Positions 1 to 31,560 of a stretch of 44,164 bases of DNA are shown here, in pieces; the stretch's first letter is position 1; the number at the start of each line of letters is the position of its first letter. Source of the DNA: Patescibacteria group bacterium (GTDB taxonomy: Bacteria > Patescibacteriota > Patescibacteriia > 2-12-FULL-60-25). The position numbers were made by a program, and so were the translations under genes. Location of the stretch: contig JAGOQX010000007.1 in assembly GCA_018063105.1 (NCBI GenBank), forward strand, positions 1 to 44,164, read 5' to 3'. The notes under the pieces are model-generated. The model saw only the letters and a program-made list of their open reading frames with translations. It had not been told where the DNA came from and ran no database searches.

Positions 1-1552
1 TATTTTCTACTTCTGCATTTACTTCTTGAATTGCATCCAGTAAGAAATGATCTAGATCGAGTGCGATTCCTTCTGGGCGTGCGTAATAGCCAAGTTGTTT
101 TCTTTCAGCCTGGCGTAGTTGTTCATCCGCAGATGCTTGTCTGACTTCCTCGTGCTTGCGCACCGTTTGAATGTGTTTCGTTGCAAGCTCCGTTACAGCC
201 TGCCAATTTTCAGGTTTTACAATGTACGCAGCTTTTGCTTTTGCCATGTGTGGATTATCGCGTAAAAAAAGCTGAAATGTTTTTAAAGCATCCAATACGA
301 TAGTCTGCGTCATCTCAACCGTTGCAAATTCCGGATTACGAGCGTTCTGTCTATTATCATGATTGATGACAGATCGTTTATCAAGTAAACGCTGATGAAC
401 GTTCGCTAGAACCTCTTGCTGAAATGTATCATACAGTTCAGATGTAGGAATCTTCATCGGATCTGCTAGAAAAGGTTGCAATTCCGGTGTTGATACCTGA
501 GGTGAAGAAATGATTTCAATGATGGTTCGATCTTGAAGTGCTCGTTGGACTCCCGCGATGATATGGTGATCTTCCGGCGTATAACGCTTATCTTCATTGG
601 CGAATTTGAGCCCATTCATGGTTTGAATACGTTTTAACGGAAAACGATATTCAGCACCACTCGGAAGTGGCAGCGTATAAATTATTTCTACATCCGGGAC
701 TGGACCGGGATCTTCAATTCCGGAACCGCAAACATATTTTAAAAAGTTAGGATCAATTCTTCCTCGAAGTTCGACCGTGGCCCCTGTGATCTTTTTTTGT
801 TCAATTGCTGCTTGGTACTTTGCAATTTGATCGTGATGTCCATCGGTACTACCATACGGCATTCGTGGAAGAAATTTTGCTTCATACGCGTATAATCCGT
901 CTTCACGCTGAATAAAGGCGTCAGGTAAAACAGGAGCTTTTGTTACGCGTTTTCCGTTGCGGGCTTCATAGGTAATATCCATTGCTGGGGGTTGGCCTAC
1001 GTATACCTGTTCCAATCCTTGAGAGTGTAGAATATCCAGCCGTGAGACTTCAAAGAGCAGCCCTTCTAGTTTAGCTTTTTGACCCGCAGAATTTTTTTCA
1101 TTTAAGGCAGATTTTAGTCCATTGATGATGCGCTCTTGCAGTGTAGGATCTTTTGTAGAAAAGAGCTCAGTAAGTTTGGCTGCTTTTTCATTTCCAATGA
1201 CTGTTTCTGCTTTTAGAGAGTACTGTTGAAATTGCTTTTCTTGATCACGAATCTTTTTAGATTCTGAACGTTGTGCTGCAATTTCTGGAAAAATTCGTAA
1301 CACTGCTCCGGAGGCACGCCCTAATCGAGCTTTTAAAGCAGGATCAACGGAGGCTAGAGTTTTCATGGTCTCGGCATCATTCAACAGCTCATCAATTCGT
1401 TTTTGTAGAGCTTGAACATCTTCAAAGAGCTGGGCATTTTCTTGTCCAAGTGTCTCTAGCTCCAGAGCTATTGTTTCAACAGTCGATTTTGTGTGAGTTT
1501 CGACGTGGGCATCTTCTATGCCTGTATCAGACGGTTTGCGTTGTTCAGGCAT
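1..1552 (-). CDS. Large hypothetical protein, possible PD-(D/E)XK nuclease domain (3' end outside window)
   Basis: An open frame runs leftward from the ATG at 1552 to the window edge without a stop, about 517 codons, so the C-terminus is missing. Residues 20-110 are rich in Glu, Gln, Lys and Leu and look coiled-coil. Around residues 205-230 the protein reads LPDAF, then about a dozen residues, then YAYEAKF; this Pro-Asp ... Glu-x-Lys spacing (P210, D211, E224, K226) is what PD-(D/E)XK nucleases show. The rest is not recognised. The start lies 5 bases after the stop of a 44-codon gene, suggesting co-transcription. No SD is seen. The nuclease assignment is inference from one motif; a structural protein with a chance match is the alternative. 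Confidence 0.6.
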   Translation of the reverse strand, partial: MPEQRKPSDTGIEDAHVETHTKSTVETIALELETLGQENAQLFEDVQALQKRIDELLNDAETMKTLASVDPALKARLGRASGAVLRIFPEIAAQRSESKKIRDQEKQFQQYSLKAETVIGNEKAAKLTELFSTKDPTLQERIINGLKSALNEKNSAGQKAKLEGLLFEVSRLDILHSQGLEQVYVGQPPAMDITYEARNGKRVTKAPVLPDAFIQREDGLYAYEAKFLPRMPYGSTDGHHDQIAKYQAAIEQKKITGATVELRGRIDPNFLKYVCGSGIEDPGPVPDVEIIYTLPLPSGAEYRFPLKRIQTMNGLKFANEDKRYTPEDHHIIAGVQRALQDRTIIEIISSPQVSTPELQPFLADPMKIPTSELYDTFQQEVLANVHQRLLDKRSVINHDNRQNARNPEFATVEMTQTIVLDALKTFQLFLRDNPHMAKAKAAYIVKPENWQAVTELATKHIQTVRKHEEVRQASADEQLRQAERKQLGYYARPEGIALDLDHFLLDAIQEVNAEVEN

Positions 1553-1557
1553 ATTTC

Positions 1558-1692
1558 TTAGTTCTTTTCTACTGTTGCACGTATCAATGTAGTCTCAACT
1601 TCATCGACAAGAATCTGCATTTCTTTACGCAGCTGCTGCAAACGCTTCTTTAATTGTCTCGCAACTTGTAGTTCTGTAAGTGAAGTCGTCAT
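1558..1692 (-). CDS. Small coiled-coil protein (44 aa) upstream of the possible nuclease gene
   Basis: A short frame starts at the ATG at 1692 and stops with TAA at 1558-1560, just before the ATG of the large leftward gene (start 1552). The 44-residue product is almost entirely charged and helical (runs such as QLKKRLQQLRKEMQ), typical of a short coiled coil. No SD is present. It is supported mainly by its tight coupling to the downstream gene and by the absence of any other explanation for the stretch. Function unknown; it could be a partner subunit of the larger protein. Confidence 0.4.
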   Translation of the reverse strand: MTTSLTELQVARQLKKRLQQLRKEMQILVDEVETTLIRATVEKN

Positions 1693-1817
1693 ATCTGGTT
1701 TACGAATATTTTACAGGGCAAACACAAAAGAATCTACTTCACTTACACGCTCGTCGAATTCTCGGTAGTATGAAGCTCTGTCGTGAGACTTGGGTTTATC
1801 GAATATGAGTGTTAATA

Positions 1818-1867
1818 AAAAAGATAAAAAAATAGGCTCCGATCGGAGCCTATTTTTTTATCTTTTT
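1818..1867. terminator. Bidirectional intrinsic terminator after rplS
   Basis: A near-perfect palindrome centred on GATC at 1841-1844, with stem AATAGGCTCC / GGAGCCTATT and A-rich and T-rich flanks on both sides. It abuts the rplS stop at 1867 and can end transcription in either direction. The stretch 1693-1817 between the 44-aa gene and this hairpin holds no recognisable gene. Confidence 0.9.
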
Positions 1868-2211
1868 TATTTCGCTTTGTGAATTTCTTTCAAGCCGCGC
1901 TTTCCTGTGCGAACGTGTGTGATTACGTTGCGGCGGGCTTTGAACGTTCGGACGAGTTCGATCTTGTCGATCACCGGGGAGGCGATTGGGAAGATACGTT
2001 CGACTCCGATACCGTCTGACACCTTGCGGACGGTCATTGTGCGTGAAACGCTACCGCCGCTCACTTTGAGGACGAGGCCTTCAAACACCTGAATACGCTC
2101 TTTTTCTTCACCTTTAGTGTTCAACTCTTTGACTTTGAGGTGAACGCGAATCTGCATACCGGTGACGACATCGGCTGCTGCAATCGGTTGGTATTTGTTG
2201 GTTTCGGCCAT
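1867..2211 (-). CDS. rplS: Ribosomal protein bL19
   Basis: 114 residues matching bL19 throughout. The N-terminal part has [19 protein letters not shown], the centre has the family signature around [10 protein letters not shown] and [10 protein letters not shown], and the C-terminus has the basic tail ([12 protein letters not shown]-like). bL19 sits at the 30S-50S interface of the ribosome. Length is normal for the family. The ATG at 2211 is not preceded by an SD, in line with the other core genes here. It ends at a strong terminator and is followed upstream by gmk after about 60 bases. Confidence 0.97.
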
Positions 2212-2272
2212 ACAATTTATGTGGCCGTAGCATACCTAATTGCAGGGAATCCGTCAATACCAGCCTGATTGG

Positions 2273-2842
2273 TTAGGCTTTTGAGGTTTTAGCCTGGATA
2301 GCATGAACCGCCTTTTCGTAGGCTTCCTCAATCTTCCCCTCCATATTCTTAATATACACGTCCGCAATTCCACGATGCGTCTCTTCCTCCGTTAGCTGTG
2401 CTGTCCGTCGTTTCATCTCTGCAGCCTCAGTCCCGCGTTTCTTCAGTCTATCGGTTAGTGCCTTCTTCGATGCATCCAAAAAAACGATGAAGGTATTTGG
2501 AATAACACGCTTCATCGTTTCTGCGCCTTGAACATCGAGCACCATCAAGATTGGTTTTTTTGTGTCCTTGAGGCGTTCGAATTCTGTCTTTGAGGAACCG
2601 TAGTAATTGCCGTAGACCTCAGCTGACTCGAAGAATCGATTCTTTTTCAGGTCTTGTTCAAAATCCTCGCGCGTCACAAACCAGTAGTCTTTCCCATTTT
2701 TTTCTCCAGGTCGTTTCGCCCGCGTGGTGCAGGTGACGAATCGTTGGAAGGGGAATGGCTTTCGCACCTTGAGCATGTCGAGGATGGTGGATTTTCCAGA
2801 TCCTGACGGGCCGGTGAGGATAATGAGCAGAGGGTGTGGCAT
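2273..2842 (-). CDS. gmk: Guanylate kinase
   Basis: 189 residues with P-loop GPSGSGKST at residues 11-19 and the GMP-binding region FVTCTTRAKRPGEKNGKDYW, characteristic of guanylate kinase. The enzyme phosphorylates GMP to GDP with ATP in the cytoplasm. The lid and C-terminal helices (ADVYIKNMEGKIEEAYEKA) are present and the length is typical. No SD precedes the ATG at 2842. It lies 10 bases downstream of the RluD-type gene on the same strand, so the two are likely co-transcribed. Confidence 0.95.
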   Translation of the reverse strand: MPHPLLIILTGPSGSGKSTILDMLKVRKPFPFQRFVTCTTRAKRPGEKNGKDYWFVTREDFEQDLKKNRFFESAEVYGNYYGSSKTEFERLKDTKKPILMVLDVQGAETMKRVIPNTFIVFLDASKKALTDRLKKRGTEAAEMKRRTAQLTEEETHRGIADVYIKNMEGKIEEAYEKAVHAIQAKTSKA

Positions 2843-2852
2843 GGGTTTGAGA

Positions 2853-3791
2853 TTAAGAAAGTTGGTTCATCACTGTCGCGAATTCTGGTGCTGGCGCAAG
2901 GTCGAATGCGTGCGGTGTTCCGGTTGTTGGATCATTGAATCGAAGATGGATACATTGCAACATGAGACGCGGAGCTTTGATGTTGCGATCTTCGGATCGG
3001 CGGATGTAGAGCGGATCACCGATGATTGGATGGCTGAACGCGAGCAGGTGAGCGCGAATTTGGTGTGTGCGTCCAGAGAAAATATCGAGCTCCATGAGCG
3101 AGGCATTGTGGAATCGTTTCACGGTTTTGAAGTGTGTCCATGCGGCTTTTCCGGCTTTTTCATTTTCCGGGATTGCAGCCATGCGCAACTTCGTGGTTGA
3201 TCGTCCAATGCGGAATTTGATCTCACCTTCATCTTCGCGAACCTCACCGTAGACGAGCGCGATGTATCGTTTTTCAACGGAGTGTTCAGCAAACTGCTTC
3301 TTCAAGTTTTCAAATGCGATCTGTGTTCGCGCGATCACCATCAACCCGCTCGCTTCTTTGTCGAGGCGGTGCATGATACCTGGACGCGTTGGATCTTCGC
3401 CAATTTTTGCAATCGCTGGATCGTACGCAATGAGCGCGTCAACAAGTGTTGGTCCCTGTTCTTTTCCATCTGGATGCACAATGACCCCGGATGGCTTGTT
3501 GATAACGACCCAGTCTGGCGTTGCCTCAATCACTTCAAGCGGAGGAAGTGGTTGGTACGTCTTTTTTGTCTCTGCTTTTTGCTTTGTTGTTTTGACGGAA
3601 TCTTCAAAATCAATGACATCACCCAATGAAAGAAAATGGTGGACGTTGACGACTTTGTTGTTCACTTTGCCTGCGCCGTGTTTCAGGAGTTTGGCAATGT
3701 GGCTTCGAGACTGTTCAGGAAGTTGTTCAGTAATAAAAACGTCCAGTCGGAGACGATTTGGTTCGCGGTCAATGGTCCAGTGGTGAAGCAT
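2853..3791 (-). CDS. rluD: RluA/RluD-family 23S rRNA pseudouridine synthase
   Basis: 312 residues with an N-terminal S4 RNA-binding domain (about residues 12-65, including SRSHIAKLLKHG) and a catalytic domain with HRLDKEASG at residues 141-149, where D144 is the catalytic aspartate. Later motifs SGRTHQIRAHL and GDPLY also match. The family isomerises uridine to pseudouridine in large-subunit rRNA. Whether the target is that of RluD (helix 69) or of a paralogue cannot be told from sequence alone. Length is normal. No SD is seen upstream of the ATG. Confidence 0.9.
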   Translation of the reverse strand: MLHHWTIDREPNRLRLDVFITEQLPEQSRSHIAKLLKHGAGKVNNKVVNVHHFLSLGDVIDFEDSVKTTKQKAETKKTYQPLPPLEVIEATPDWVVINKPSGVIVHPDGKEQGPTLVDALIAYDPAIAKIGEDPTRPGIMHRLDKEASGLMVIARTQIAFENLKKQFAEHSVEKRYIALVYGEVREDEGEIKFRIGRSTTKLRMAAIPENEKAGKAAWTHFKTVKRFHNASLMELDIFSGRTHQIRAHLLAFSHPIIGDPLYIRRSEDRNIKAPRLMLQCIHLRFNDPTTGTPHAFDLAPAPEFATVMNQLS

Positions 3792-3825
3792 AGGGGGATG
3801 ATATCAGAAGGGGTGGATAGAACAA

Positions 3826-3849
3826 CCCCGCCTTTCGCAAGAGGCGGGG
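3826..3849. repeat. GC-rich palindrome, variant of the window's REP-like repeat
   Basis: CCCCGCCT and AGGCGGGG flank an 8-base loop between the RluD-type gene and an orphan gene. No T-run follows on either strand, so it is a poor terminator. The arms resemble those of the palindromes at 10886-10915 and 11272-11301. Confidence 0.55.
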
Positions 3850-3867
3850 GAGGAATCAGCGATGTGG

Positions 3868-4368
3868 TTATTTTTGTCGACGAGTCACGACTCCAAGAAG
3901 AAGGGTGATGCAAAGGAGGAATGACCGGATTGCTGGGTCTTGCATGCGTGGACGCTGGAAATCCTCCTCCGGACTAATCTGTGAGGGGAGATCAGGGTCA
4001 AGCTTGCGGAGCGCTGTTTCCAGCTTGGGCCATACTTCAGTTCGTTGTTTGTTGAGCCGTTTGTATCGAAGCGTTCGATTTGGATCGTTCGTCAGATACC
4101 AGAAGTTGGTCAGTTTGCTCCATGCCCGCACGATTTGCCTGTCGGTAGGCTTGCGAGACATCGACAGATGCTCGTTCTGAAAACGAGAATGGTTCACGAG
4201 GTAGACGACCAGAAGTGCGTCTACGATGTCTCGATCCTCGAGCAACTCAGGAGCGGCGATGAGCATCGGCCGGAGACACTCCAGGAGAAGCGGGGAAGTA
4301 TAGGCGAAGGACTTCCACCGAGGCGGAATTGGTGCTGGTTTTGCTTTTACTACGCTCGGACCATTCAT
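3868..4368 (-). CDS. Hypothetical protein with C-terminal hydrophobic segment (166 aa)
   Basis: I do not recognise this protein. The start at 4368 (MNGPSVVK) is chosen because AAAGGAG lies at the right distance before it; the upstream ATG at 4401 has no SD. The product is soluble and helical over most of its length, with many Arg, Leu and Trp residues, and ends in a hydrophobic stretch (FLLCITLLLGVV) followed by RRQK, suggesting a tail anchor facing the cytoplasm. It has its own SD, unlike neighbouring core genes, and sits alone between the RluD-type gene and hppA. Confidence 0.65.
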   Translation of the reverse strand: MNGPSVVKAKPAPIPPRWKSFAYTSPLLLECLRPMLIAAPELLEDRDIVDALLVVYLVNHSRFQNEHLSMSRKPTDRQIVRAWSKLTNFWYLTNDPNRTLRYKRLNKQRTEVWPKLETALRKLDPDLPSQISPEEDFQRPRMQDPAIRSFLLCITLLLGVVTRRQK

Positions 4369-8810: not shown

Positions 8811-8818
8811 AGGAAATA

Positions 8819-8931
8819 GGCAGTGCCACGTGAACCCCATCGAACGGGGAGCCCCGTAAAGCGCACCAGGTGAATATTTCTCTTGCGCCACGGCGTAAAG
8901 CCGCGTGCGGCCACGCCGCTATACGCGGGGC
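8819..8931 (-). repeat. tRNA-associated repeat, copy A
   Basis: Read on the minus strand this follows tRNA-Phe and its terminator. It contains CGTGGCGCAAG, then CACCTGGTGCGCTTTACGGGG, then CACGTGGCAC, in the same order as in copy B (9346-9421, opposite strand) and partly in copy C (31446-31560). GCGCA and TGCGC can pair. No reading frame is credible here. Confidence 0.8.
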
Positions 8932-8967
8932 ACGTAAAAACCCCACTTGTAGATGGGGTTTTTACGT
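8932..8967 (-). terminator. Terminator of tRNA-Phe
   Basis: ACGTAAAAACCCC and GGGGTTTTTACGT form a strong stem directly after the CCA of tRNA-Phe. The arms are symmetrical and could work in both directions. The other two tRNA-associated repeat loci have hairpins of the same design. Confidence 0.85.
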
Positions 8968-9313: not shown

Positions 9314-9348
9314 CGAAAAAACCCTCGCACAACGAGGGTTTTTTCGTG
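9312..9348 (+). terminator. Terminator of tRNA-Ile(GAU)
   Basis: CACGAAAAAACCCTCG pairs with CGAGGGTTTTTTCGTG around CACAA, starting at the tRNA CCA end. Confidence 0.9.
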
Positions 9349-9430
9349 CCACGTGGCGCAAGGAGGATATTCACCTGGTGCGCTTTACGGGGCTGTGTGC
9401 GTGCGATGGTTCACGTGGCACAGCCGTTAG
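9346..9430 (+). repeat. tRNA-associated repeat, copy B
   Basis: Bounded by a perfect 10-base inverted repeat, GTGCCACGTG at 9346-9355 and CACGTGGCAC at 9412-9421. Inside are GGCGCAAG and CACCTGGTGCGCTTTACGGGG, shared with copy A on the opposite strand. The tail CAGCCGTTAG plus a T-run is shared with copy C. It leads directly into the hicBA promoter. Confidence 0.8.
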
Positions 9431-9491: not shown

Positions 9492-9764
9492 ATGTCCATA
9501 AAGCAAACGATATCAAAAAAGGCTACGATCCATTCTTATAATGTGATATTCGAACCACTGCTTGATGGTGGCTATAATGTTATTGTCCCGGCGATCTCAG
9601 AGATCTGTACGTTCGGTAAGACATTGCCAGAGGCGAAGATGATGGCGATGGATGCGATTCAGTGTTTTCTTGAAAGTGCGCGCAAAGATCATATCGCTCC
9701 GCCTCGTGATGTTCGTTTTTCTCCTAGAGTGACAAAGATGAAGGTTAGACTCCAGCCGGCATGA
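9492..9764 (+). CDS. hicB: HicB-family antitoxin
   Basis: 90 residues with the HicB-like core: YNVIFEPLLDGGYNVIVPAI, then CTFGKTLPEAKMMAMDAI and FLESARKD, the degenerate RNase-H-like fold that binds and blocks HicA. There is no C-terminal DNA-binding domain, so it belongs to the short form. The gene precedes and overlaps the toxin gene by 4 bases (ATGA), the usual antitoxin-first coupling. It has its own promoter and follows a tRNA-associated repeat, consistent with a mobile module next to a tRNA. Confidence 0.85.
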   Translation: MSIKQTISKKATIHSYNVIFEPLLDGGYNVIVPAISEICTFGKTLPEAKMMAMDAIQCFLESARKDHIAPPRDVRFSPRVTKMKVRLQPA

Positions 9765-9988
9765 CCAAGCTTCCAGTGCTTCGTGCTAAGGATATTATCG
9801 CTGCGCTTGGACGAGCTGGATTTATCATTCATCATCAACACGGAAGTCATGTACGACTTCGATGTGAAGGAAGTCCGACGCGGAACGTTACCGTGCCTGT
9901 TCACGCAGTAGATATTCCACAGGGGACGCTACGGAGGATTATCGAACAGGCCGGAATGACGCATGATGAATTTAGGAATTTATTATAA
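9761..9988 (+). CDS. hicA: HicA-family mRNA interferase toxin
   Basis: 75 residues with a double-stranded RNA-binding-like fold. LRAKDIIAALGRAGF is followed by HHQHGSHVRL, in which the His of GSH (residue 30) is the catalytic residue of the family; the C-terminus has IPQGTLRRIIEQAGM. HicA toxins cut mRNA when the antitoxin is lost. The start codon overlaps the hicB stop. Length is typical. Confidence 0.9.
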   Translation: MTKLPVLRAKDIIAALGRAGFIIHHQHGSHVRLRCEGSPTRNVTVPVHAVDIPQGTLRRIIEQAGMTHDEFRNLL

Positions 9989-10685: not shown

Positions 10686-10793
10686 GATGCCCCCCTGAAA
10701 AGTACTCGGCTTTCCCTTGCCGTACGGGTCAGTGTGACGTATCAAGATAGAATAAAAAAAGTGGTTTTGTCAATTCTAATAGGTAGCAAAAAC

Positions 10794-10823
10794 AAAAACA
10801 CCTCGATTTCTCGAAGTGTTTTT
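10794..10823 (-). terminator. Terminator after the outer tRNA-Pro fragment
   Basis: AAAAACACCTCGA and TCGAAGTGTTTTT pair around TTTC; the minus-strand T-run follows the first truncated tRNA-Pro copy. It differs from the hairpins inside the tandem units, so it is likely the original terminator of the tRNA-Pro gene. Confidence 0.8.
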
Positions 10824-10825
10824 GA

Positions 10826-10885
10826 TGGTCGGGCTGGTGGGACTCGAACCCACGACCCTCTGCTCCCAAAGCAGATGCGCTAGCC
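10826..10885 (-). pseudogene. Truncated tRNA-Pro(UGG), 3' part, unit 1
   Basis: Identical to the 3' 60 bases of the intact tRNA at 11598-11674, from GGCTAGC in the D-loop to CCA. The 5' acceptor strand and D-stem half are replaced by the palindrome and the GIY-YIG gene, so it cannot fold as a full tRNA. Confidence 0.92.
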
Positions 10886-11161
10886 CCCGCCAGAGGCGGG
10901 TCCGCCTTTGGCGGAAACTGCTCCAATAATCGCATCCCGTATTCGTCTTCCCATGCCCGTCTTATAAAACGCCTCTCGTTTCGCTGCATCCTCCTTGCAG
11001 CAATAGCTTTCATAATAGACTAGGGTGAACGGTCCATTCTGACTGGTCCAGTCATTCGATCCCTGATTGTGTTCAAGTGCTCGTTGCTTTGGATCTTTTT
11101 CCGTCATGCCAACATAATATTTGCCGTTAGTCGTGCTTTTGAGGAAGTAGACGGAATGCAT
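10880..11161 (-). CDS. GIY-YIG nuclease-domain protein, unit 1
   Basis: 93 residues. VYFLKSTTNGKYYVGMT near the start is the GIY-YIG strand pair, followed by QRALEHN, GPFTLVYYESY and EDAAKREAFYKTGMGRR, the single-domain layout of the YhbQ/UPF0213-like group. A final Glu-containing helix (KREAF) fits the catalytic Glu. Family members cut DNA or have unknown roles. The last 12 or so residues (SAKGGPASGGG) come from the palindrome and its TAG stop is supplied by the tRNA sequence GCTAGC. TATACT sits just upstream of the ATG, so the mRNA may be nearly leaderless. The product is identical to that of unit 2. Confidence 0.88.
   Translation of the reverse strand: MHSVYFLKSTTNGKYYVGMTEKDPKQRALEHNQGSNDWTSQNGPFTLVYYESYCCKEDAAKREAFYKTGMGRRIRDAIIGAVSAKGGPASGGG
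10886..10915. repeat. REP-like double palindrome, unit 1
   Basis: Two adjacent hairpins, CCCGCCAGAGGCGGG and TCCGCCTTTGGCGGA, fused to the D-loop of the truncated tRNA-Pro on one side and in frame with the GIY-YIG gene on the other. Confidence 0.85.
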
Positions 11162-11182
11162 CTATAAAGTATATAGAAACAC

Positions 11183-11207
11183 AAAACTCTGGTCTATCCA
11201 GAGTTTT
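11183..11207 (-). terminator. Terminator inside the tandem array (after tRNA-Pro part of unit 2)
   Basis: AAAACTCTGG and CCAGAGTTTT pair around TCTAT, followed on the minus strand by T-rich bases; it lies between the tRNA-Pro part and the next GIY-YIG gene. Confidence 0.8.
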
Positions 11208-11211
11208 GATA

Positions 11212-11271
11212 TGGTCGGGCTGGTGGGACTCGAACCCACGACCCTCTGCTCCCAAAGCAGATGCGCTAGCC
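11212..11271 (-). pseudogene. Truncated tRNA-Pro(UGG), 3' part, unit 2
   Basis: Same 60-base 3' fragment as in unit 1, again joined to the double palindrome at the D-loop position before GGCTAGC. Confidence 0.92.
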
Positions 11272-11547
11272 CCCGCCAGAGGCGGGTCCGCCTTTGGCGG
11301 AAACTGCTCCAATAATCGCATCCCGTATTCGTCTTCCCATGCCCGTCTTATAAAACGCCTCTCGTTTCGCTGCATCCTCCTTGCAGCAATAGCTTTCATA
11401 ATAGACTAGGGTGAACGGTCCATTCTGACTGGTCCAGTCATTCGATCCCTGATTGTGTTCAAGTGCTCGTTGCTTTGGATCTTTTTCCGTCATGCCAACA
11501 TAATATTTGCCGTTAGTCGTGCTTTTGAGGAAGTAGACGGAATGCAT
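11266..11547 (-). CDS. GIY-YIG nuclease-domain protein, unit 2
   Basis: The 93-residue product is the same as that of the gene at 10880-11161, with motifs VYFLKSTTNGKYYVGMT and KREAFYKTGMGRR. The stop again lies in the tRNA fragment. Being next to the intact tRNA-Pro, this copy is separated from it only by the 50-base stretch that carries the hairpin at 11569-11593 and the TATACT box. Identity of the two copies means either recent duplication or continuing homogenisation. Confidence 0.88.
   Translation of the reverse strand: MHSVYFLKSTTNGKYYVGMTEKDPKQRALEHNQGSNDWTSQNGPFTLVYYESYCCKEDAAKREAFYKTGMGRRIRDAIIGAVSAKGGPASGGG
11272..11301. repeat. REP-like double palindrome, unit 2
   Basis: Same 30-base pair of hairpins as at 10886-10915, in the same junction between tRNA-Pro fragment and GIY-YIG gene. 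Confidence 0.85.
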
Positions 11548-11568
11548 CTATAAAGTATATAGAAACAC

Positions 11569-11593
11569 AAAACTCTGGTCTATCCAGAGTTTT
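11569..11593 (-). terminator. Terminator of intact tRNA-Pro
   Basis: Same hairpin as at 11183-11207, directly downstream of the intact tRNA-Pro on the minus strand. Confidence 0.8.
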
Positions 11594-11597
11594 GATA

Positions 11598-11674
11598 TGG
11601 TCGGGCTGGTGGGACTCGAACCCACGACCCTCTGCTCCCAAAGCAGATGCGCTAGCCAACTGCGCTACAGCCCG
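11598..11674 (-). tRNA. tRNA-Pro(UGG), intact
   Basis: Cloverleaf with acceptor CGGGCTG/CAGCCCG, encoded ACCA, D-stem GCGC, anticodon stem TCTGC/GCAGA with loop TTTGGGA, so anticodon UGG. T-stem GTGGG/CCCAC is present. This is the only complete tRNA-Pro in the window; three partial copies flank it. Confidence 0.95.
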
Positions 11675-11701: not shown

Positions 11702-11754
11702 GCTAGCCTCGCCCCTGGCGAATCCGCCTTTGGCGGAAACTGCGCTACAGCCCG
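11702..11754 (-). pseudogene. tRNA-Pro 5' fragment carrying a REP-like insertion in the D-loop
   Basis: On the minus strand the sequence reads the first 17 bases of tRNA-Pro (CGGGCTGTAGCGCAGTT), then a 29-base palindromic repeat with GCCAAAGGCGGATTCGCC, then GGCTAGC of the D-loop; homology then stops. The insertion site is the same D-loop junction as in the two GIY-YIG units. It is a degraded, non-functional copy upstream of the intact gene. Confidence 0.88.
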
Positions 11755-12807: not shown

Positions 12808-12831
12808 TCGCGTTCAACGCGACCAGGTGAG

Positions 12832-31412: not shown

Positions 31413-31447
31413 CGTAAAAACGACAGCTTACCCTGTCGTTTTTACGT
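31412..31447 (+). terminator. Terminator of tRNA-Arg
   Basis: ACGTAAAAACGACAG pairs with CTGTCGTTTTTACGT; same design as the hairpin after tRNA-Phe. Confidence 0.9.
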
Positions 31448-31560
31448 GCCCCGTGGCGTAACCAGCTGCTATGCCGAGCTTTACGGGGCTACCTATTGAT
31501 TTCGCTGTCGTTCACATGTCCCGTCGGTCGCGACCGACGGGACGTGGCACGGCCAGTTAG
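31446..31560 (+). repeat. tRNA-associated repeat, copy C (diverged)
   Basis: It holds CCGTGGCGTAA, then GCTTTACGGGGCT, then an extra perfect palindrome CCCGTCGGTCGCGACCGACGGG, then GACGTGGCAC and CAGTTAG plus a T-run. Order and spacing follow copies A and B; the middle has diverged. CCCCGT and ACGGGG can pair. Confidence 0.75.

Follow-up and report, generated by a model that had tools for sequence, protein, structure and literature searches.

GIY-YIG nuclease genes bound to tRNA genes in Patescibacteria, with hairpin-interrupted copies of the same tRNA

Two small GIY-YIG nuclease genes lie in tandem beside a tRNA-Pro gene in a contig of a Patescibacteria group bacterium (JAGOQX010000007.1 from assembly GCA_018063105.1; the 44,164 nt analysed are designated the window), each of them joined to a copy of the 3′ part of that tRNA, which raises the question of whether this arrangement is a local oddity or an element that makes use of tRNA genes. 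A first-pass annotation, made from the sequence alone, had described two consecutive 386-bp units on an intact tRNA-Pro, each with a GIY-YIG gene that takes its stop codon from GCTAGC, a double palindrome and the 3′ 60 bases of the tRNA, and its description proved to be exact. Window positions 10825–11210 and 11211–11596 are identical over 386 bp, and a 61-nt segment of the tRNA 3′ end occurs three times, at 10825, 11211 and 11597, with a spacing of exactly 386. ARAGORN finds a single intact tRNA-Pro(tgg), and the two identical ORFs, of 93 aa, match Pfam PF01541 with E = 1.7e-14 and 54.3 bits, against a curated cut-off of 22.6; their last codons read through the double hairpin and stop at the TAG of GCTAGC in the tRNA D-arm. 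The coordinates of these and other features are collected in Table 1.

Table 1. Features of the window at the tRNA-Pro array and at other tRNA genes.
Coordinates	Strand	Feature	Evidence
11598..11674	-	Intact tRNA-Pro(tgg)	ARAGORN
11266..11547	-	GIY-YIG nuclease gene, unit 1 (93 aa; 3′ end runs through the hairpins and stops at TAG in tRNA GCTAGC)	ORF; Pfam PF01541
10880..11161	-	GIY-YIG nuclease gene, unit 2 (identical)	ORF
11272..11301	-	Double hairpin TCCGCCAAAGGCGGA-CCCGCCTCTGGCGGG at tRNA position 17/18, unit 1	Same site and covarying stems in related loci
10886..10915	-	Double hairpin, unit 2	Sequence and repeat analysis
11212..11271	-	Displaced tRNA-Pro nt 18-77 (copy 2)	60/60 identical
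10826..10885	-	Displaced tRNA-Pro nt 18-77 (copy 3), followed by the presumed original host terminator	Repeat analysis
11568..11594	-	Terminator-like hairpin of the element (also 11182-11208)	Inverted repeat I2
10793..10824	-	Different terminator-like hairpin, presumed original tRNA-Pro terminator	Inverted repeat I5; sequence
11702..11754	-	Second broken tRNA-Pro piece: nt 1-17, hairpins (11709-11737), nt 18-24	Repeats D3, D4
8815..8966	-	GIY-less structured module directly after the CCA of tRNA-Phe, shared with the GIY-bearing tRNA-Ser loci	Pattern search
9314..9425	+	Same module directly after the CCA of tRNA-Ile(gat), no GIY gene	Sequence comparison
31413..31554	+	Same module directly after the CCA of tRNA-Arg(tcg), with a nested palindrome, no GIY gene	Pattern search
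12808..12824		Palindrome TCGCGTTCAACGCGA directly after the CCA of tRNA-Gly(tcc), close to the one after GIY-linked tRNA-Glu and tRNA-Pro in two surveyed genomes (G004 and G026)	
9492..9988		Two short ORFs that look like a HicB/HicA toxin-antitoxin pair, just after the tRNA-Ile module	By eye, not searched

Two details go beyond the first description: a 5′ fragment of tRNA-Pro, also interrupted by hairpins, lies just upstream of the intact tRNA, and the third copy of the tRNA 3′ end is followed by a terminator-like hairpin (terminator B) different from the one inside the units (terminator A). The order on the minus strand is therefore tRNA[1-17] - {[18-77] - terminator A - GIY - hairpins} x2 - [18-77] - terminator B. 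The simplest reading is that the locus was tRNA-Pro plus terminator B, and that units were inserted at nt 17/18 in the D-loop, each bringing a replacement 3′ tRNA half with its own terminator. The two identical units come from a draft genome of 56 contigs, and the copy number of exactly two was not checked against reads, but an origin of the tandem in the assembly is very unlikely and would concern only the copy number, because the tRNA-GIY-hairpin-tRNA arrangement recurs in independent assemblies and different stacked units occur elsewhere.

The arrangement is not confined to this locus. The same genome has five GIY-YIG genes: the two of the array, one that follows tRNA-Ser (contig C18), one between a hairpin-broken and an intact tRNA-Trp (contig C42), and one (contig C48; locus L004, near 1906–1931; surveyed loci are designated L plus a number, and genomes G plus a number) that follows only a 26-nt 3′ fragment of tRNA-Ser with no intact tRNA nearby, a decayed or transposed copy. 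In 57 genomes (its own and relatives) we found 125 such genes in 44 genomes (43 with a match by the tally of the search), and all their surroundings were examined. The nearest tRNA within 300 bp is on the same strand in 87, on the opposite strand in 1 and absent in 37, whereas random positions at least 600 bp away in the same loci give 4.7% same-strand and 4.5% opposite. A phylum-wide draw of 287 genomes gives 46 same-strand, 0 opposite and 26 without a tRNA among 72 genes in the loci retrieved, a few of which overlap, and 80 named GTDB loci give 45 same-strand and 0 opposite; the contig search used a profile made from a subset of the proteins (A3), because a single profile of all GIY proteins was too diverse. 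The GTDB loci include Magasanik-, Komeili-, Kerfeld-, Shapiro-, Roizman-, Giovannoni- and Uhrbacteria, and also Omnitrophota and Oleimmundimicrobium, whereas verrucomicrobial relatives are not linked. Most tRNA isotypes are represented.

Three arrangements can be distinguished (ARRANGEMENTS). In type D, a broken 5′ tRNA copy is followed by the GIY gene and the intact tRNA; in the loci read by eye the duplicated part starts exactly at mature tRNA nt 1, and the GIY gene often ends at that point. In type U-II, like the window, the intact tRNA is followed by the GIY gene and a broken 3′ tRNA copy, and in type U-III the intact tRNA is followed by a hairpin starting right after CCA and then the GIY gene, without a clear fragment. 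Fragments of the same tRNA were found in 34 of 46 type D loci, against 1 of 46 on reversed flanks, and in 11 of 45 type U loci (control 0), so that most type U loci (34 of 45) have no clear fragment. At tRNA-Trp, 5 of 7 loci with a GIY gene but only 2 of 23 without have a fragment (p = 0.003), and in two tRNA-Arg loci broken copies flank the intact tRNA on both sides. It had been stated in advance that relatives in which the gene is never linked to a tRNA fragment would count against a tRNA-based element; the survey came out the other way, since the link holds across the phylum, with fragments of the same tRNA in most type D loci. The proposal of the first-pass annotation, a minimal mobile or homing-like element of tRNA-Pro or a nuclease-driven duplication, is thus supported, although the link is not confined to tRNA-Pro and the two options are not exclusive.

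The broken copies are interrupted by hairpin insertions. A stem of at least 6 bp starts at 30 of 61 breaks, against 2.0% of random places, and the tRNA resumes within 60 nt in 23 of 51 type D loci, against 7 of 499 when the tRNA of another locus is used. The nt 17/18 D-loop site of the window recurs in Magasanikbacteria (L196), Kerfeldbacteria (L193), G030 (L014), G149 (L272) and, as type D, in L198 and L276. However, the idea that breakpoints fall in loops was weaker than it looked, because many breaks lie at the edge of the D-arm and the minimum match length biases this, so we refer to arms and not to loops. Hairpin similarity correlates with nuclease similarity in pairs that differ in both isotype and genome (r = 0.34; best of 2000 permutations 0.16), and the same holds for the first 24 nt after CCA in type U (r = 0.33; best 0.13). 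Examples are GGTCATNCGACC in Ser- and Arg-linked elements of several families, and the pair TCNGCC-NNN-GGCNGA / YCNNCC-TNT-GGNNGR in Pro, Asp and Ala loci and in L191. The hairpin therefore belongs to the element, and not to the host or the tRNA type. Pairing is kept through compensatory changes (score 0.571 against 0.135 +/- 0.032, 0/500), although the rows used were chosen as palindromes and this supports conserved pairing only with that caveat. A repeat of the tRNA's own 3′ end (7 nt or more) after the hairpin holds in only two clades (7 of 58 loci). The hairpins are not dispersed REP-like repeats: in the window's genome the core hairpin occurs only in this tRNA-Pro locus, plus one place with a mismatch and no tRNA, and the motif GGTCATNCGACC falls mostly in broken tRNAs when its stem is long, and in what looks like coding sequence, by chance, when it is short.

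In a tree of 124 nuclease proteins, isotype needs 49 changes (67.9 +/- 1.9 when shuffled) and side 14 (30.3 +/- 2.6), whereas genome needs 77 (77.0) and genus 72 (72.5). Lineages therefore stay with a tRNA type and side while moving between hosts, or are lost very patchily; the tree rests on 73 columns and its deep forks are weak. A separate clade of 17 mostly unlinked genes (support 97) acts as an internal control, with 1 of 17 linked against 86 of 107 in the rest (Fisher p = 3e-9). Residues Y5, Y16, G18, R27, E63 and K67 are nearly invariant in 86 linked proteins, with Y5, Y16, R27 and E63 present in 84–86 of them, and omega is at most about 0.11 in the few linked pairs where dS is measurable, dS being saturated in the rest. 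A vertical relic, that is, old insertions inherited with frequent loss and without present mobility, would agree with the same-isotype elements at tRNA-Trp in one family and with the decay of some broken copies (L037, L078), but it appears improbable because genome and genus labels fit the tree no better than shuffled ones, many broken copies are still identical to the intact tRNA, and the nuclease site is conserved.

The protein, of about 80–100 aa across the family, has no DNA-binding domain beyond the catalytic one, and its nearest solved structures are the single-domain UPF0213 (YhbQ/YazA-like) proteins 1zg2 and 1ywl, followed by SLX1, a structure-specific DNA endonuclease. We know of no reported link of UPF0213 proteins to tRNA genes, and a literature search for them found nothing. 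An RNA-level role, in which the nuclease and the hairpin-bearing tRNA-like transcript act on the cognate tRNA or its precursor, as a tRNA-directed toxin with decoy or a processing device, would fit the isotype specificity, the conserved pairing of the stems and the orientation with the tRNA, with which the gene is probably co-transcribed. We nevertheless consider it unlikely, because GIY-YIG enzymes of known function are DNA nucleases, the closest solved relatives are UPF0213 proteins and the DNA enzyme SLX1, type U elements often follow a terminator, and many loci lack a tRNA-like copy.

Nuclease-free relatives may also exist. In the window, tRNA-Phe, tRNA-Ile(gat) and tRNA-Arg(tcg) carry, directly after CCA, the same 110–150 bp structured module that precedes the GIY gene at tRNA-Ser. 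Nine of ten pattern hits in the genome follow a tRNA 3′ end, some identified by ARAGORN and some by the visible CCA end alone, and several have a nested palindrome, TCCCGTCGGTCGCGACCGACGGGA; these look like non-autonomous relatives. Additionally, double hairpins without a GIY hit lie near tRNA-Thr and tRNA-Pro in G041 (L347 and L350, contig C1 at 238723 and 436470), L350 including what looks like a tRNA-Pro 3′ fragment, and are possible footprints after nuclease loss.

We next asked whether the element corresponds to a described system. A tyrosine-integrase island was ruled out because the 386-bp unit holds only the GIY ORF as a recognisable gene. An intron or intein host was also rejected: the ORF lies between tRNA copies, the NCBIfam group I intron endonuclease model scores the window protein below its cut-off (24.9 against 56.05), and an Rfam scan of 20 survey loci without an adjacent tRNA found one group I intron, in the 23S rRNA gene of L045 and not over its GIY gene, which is of the same family and lies inside that rRNA gene (1243–4201). 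The window was not scanned with Rfam, but a 386-bp unit accounted for by tRNA, terminator, ORF and hairpins leaves no room for an intron. The same analysis placed the GIY-YIG locus of L081 (2367–2759) near a tmRNA gene. GIY-YIG ORFs in insertions of CPR rRNA genes that are not introns have been described as sparse and outside homing (PMC11270868), in a text that does not mention tRNA. A phage or plasmid origin was likewise not supported, as the window protein gave no match in viral contigs or plasmids, only weak PHROG matches (best E = 0.0099) and one phage record at E = 7e-3.

The closest systems are SegB of T-even phages and the mobile endonuclease ORFs of fungal mtDNA. SegB is a free-standing GIY-YIG homing endonuclease beside tRNA genes of many isotypes, with tandem amplification of nuclease plus tRNA; in phage T6 this amplification is proposed to join the tRNA 5′ part to the segB 3′ end through microhomology (PMC13096335), and here GCAGTT is shared by the GIY 3′ end and the tRNA D-arm, in the same geometry. 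SegB is, however, phage-borne, whereas here the genes are in cellular chromosomes, encode the catalytic domain only, and show strict same-strand adjacency, lineages that follow isotype, hairpin-broken tRNA copies and cognate hairpins. By the searches above the proteins are not visibly of the SegB sequence family, although SegB itself was not aligned directly. The fungal ORFs (Allomyces atp6; Glomus atp6, atp9, cox2, nad3; PMC3630166) are inserted in a conserved gene, kept whole by a duplicated gene end while the native end is displaced downstream, and this is also the case for the tRNA in the window and in L196, L014 and L272. They differ in affecting protein genes in mitochondria, and the end they carry is foreign, whereas here the copies, of either end, are mostly identical and have hairpins. 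Copies are identical in the window and many loci but differ in some (L066, L075, L106, L272); the direction was not resolved, and these comparisons do not tell whether the carried end is foreign. REP/RAYT and IS200/IS605 systems also pair a nuclease lineage with its own hairpins and have nuclease-less hairpin modules at many sites, but they use HUH/Y1 enzymes, and the sites here are tRNA genes. We found no published description of the tRNA link in CPR, in a literature search that did not cover subscription papers or preprints.

Our favoured explanation, held with moderate confidence, is a diverse family of minimal selfish, homing-like elements of tRNA genes in Patescibacteria (CPR), composed of a single-domain GIY-YIG endonuclease and a matching hairpin or hairpin pair, which leave one tRNA copy intact and the redundant one truncated and interrupted by hairpins in its arms. 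The analysis itself demonstrates the tight same-strand linkage to tRNA genes of most isotypes, the partial copies of the same tRNA at GIY loci and rarely at GIY-less loci, the hairpins at the breaks, the nuclease lineages that follow isotype and side but not host, the hairpin sequences that follow nuclease lineage, and the conservation of the catalytic site under purifying selection; the mechanism that follows is inference. In this view, the nuclease would cleave the tRNA gene, or a structure it forms, together with its flank, and repair would copy the element in by recombination through tRNA sequence. An SLX1-like enzyme that recognises a tRNA gene, perhaps through the structure its DNA can form, would explain both the tRNA specificity without a DNA-binding domain and the cognate hairpins. 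The element would land exactly at tRNA nt 1 (type D) or at or near the 3′ end (type U), separating the intact tRNA from its original leader or trailer, respectively, while hairpins spoil the displaced copy, and together this may prevent re-cleavage. No movement, cleavage or expression was observed, and whether alleles lacking the gene are cleaved and the element copied into them was not assayed. Several points weigh against this explanation: the signature of a carried foreign half is not seen in most loci, the intact tRNA would seem to remain a target, so that immunity has to rest on flanks or structure, the precise entry of hairpins into the displaced copy is unexplained, most type U loci have no clear tRNA fragment, and the protein has no DNA-binding domain beyond the catalytic one. 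No exact empty site in a close strain was found, relatives of the window being too diverged outside the tRNA for a comparison at the nucleotide level.

The exact tandem of the window is best seen as a later amplification by recombination between repeats, as described for phage SegB. It could alternatively be argued that the system is an amplification device rather than a mobile element, in which the enzyme breaks DNA at its own tRNA locus and recombination between tRNA and gene ends makes tandem copies, with tRNA dosage as the benefit. Besides the tandem and the shared GCAGTT, stacked GIY genes at one tRNA occur at L056 (G040, contig C6, 1–700; between tRNA-Tyr fragments at a contig end), L193, L279 and L281. 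This alternative seems unlikely, because most loci are single copy, the extra tRNA copies are broken and dosage does not rise, the stacked genes in L056 are different from each other, and lineages track isotype across distant hosts, which asks for transfer or targeting. A more far-reaching possibility, which we regard as tentative, is a new class of mobile DNA: structure-guided GIY-YIG mini-elements in which each nuclease lineage recognises its own hairpin and a tRNA gene arm or end, inserting into almost any tRNA gene across CPR and some neighbouring phyla, with nuclease-free hairpin modules spread in trans at tRNA 3′ ends.

tRNA genes are the classic landing sites of integrating DNA, but usually by tyrosine integrases of large islands. 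Here, a nuclease of about 90 residues seems to manage with one domain and a hairpin, in genomes of about 1 Mb that are otherwise stripped down. If this reading is right, it explains why small GIY-YIG genes are so common in Patescibacteria, gives many ready-made combinations of nuclease, hairpin and tRNA for the study of target choice, and supplies a chromosomal counterpart to the tRNA-linked amplification just described for phage SegB.
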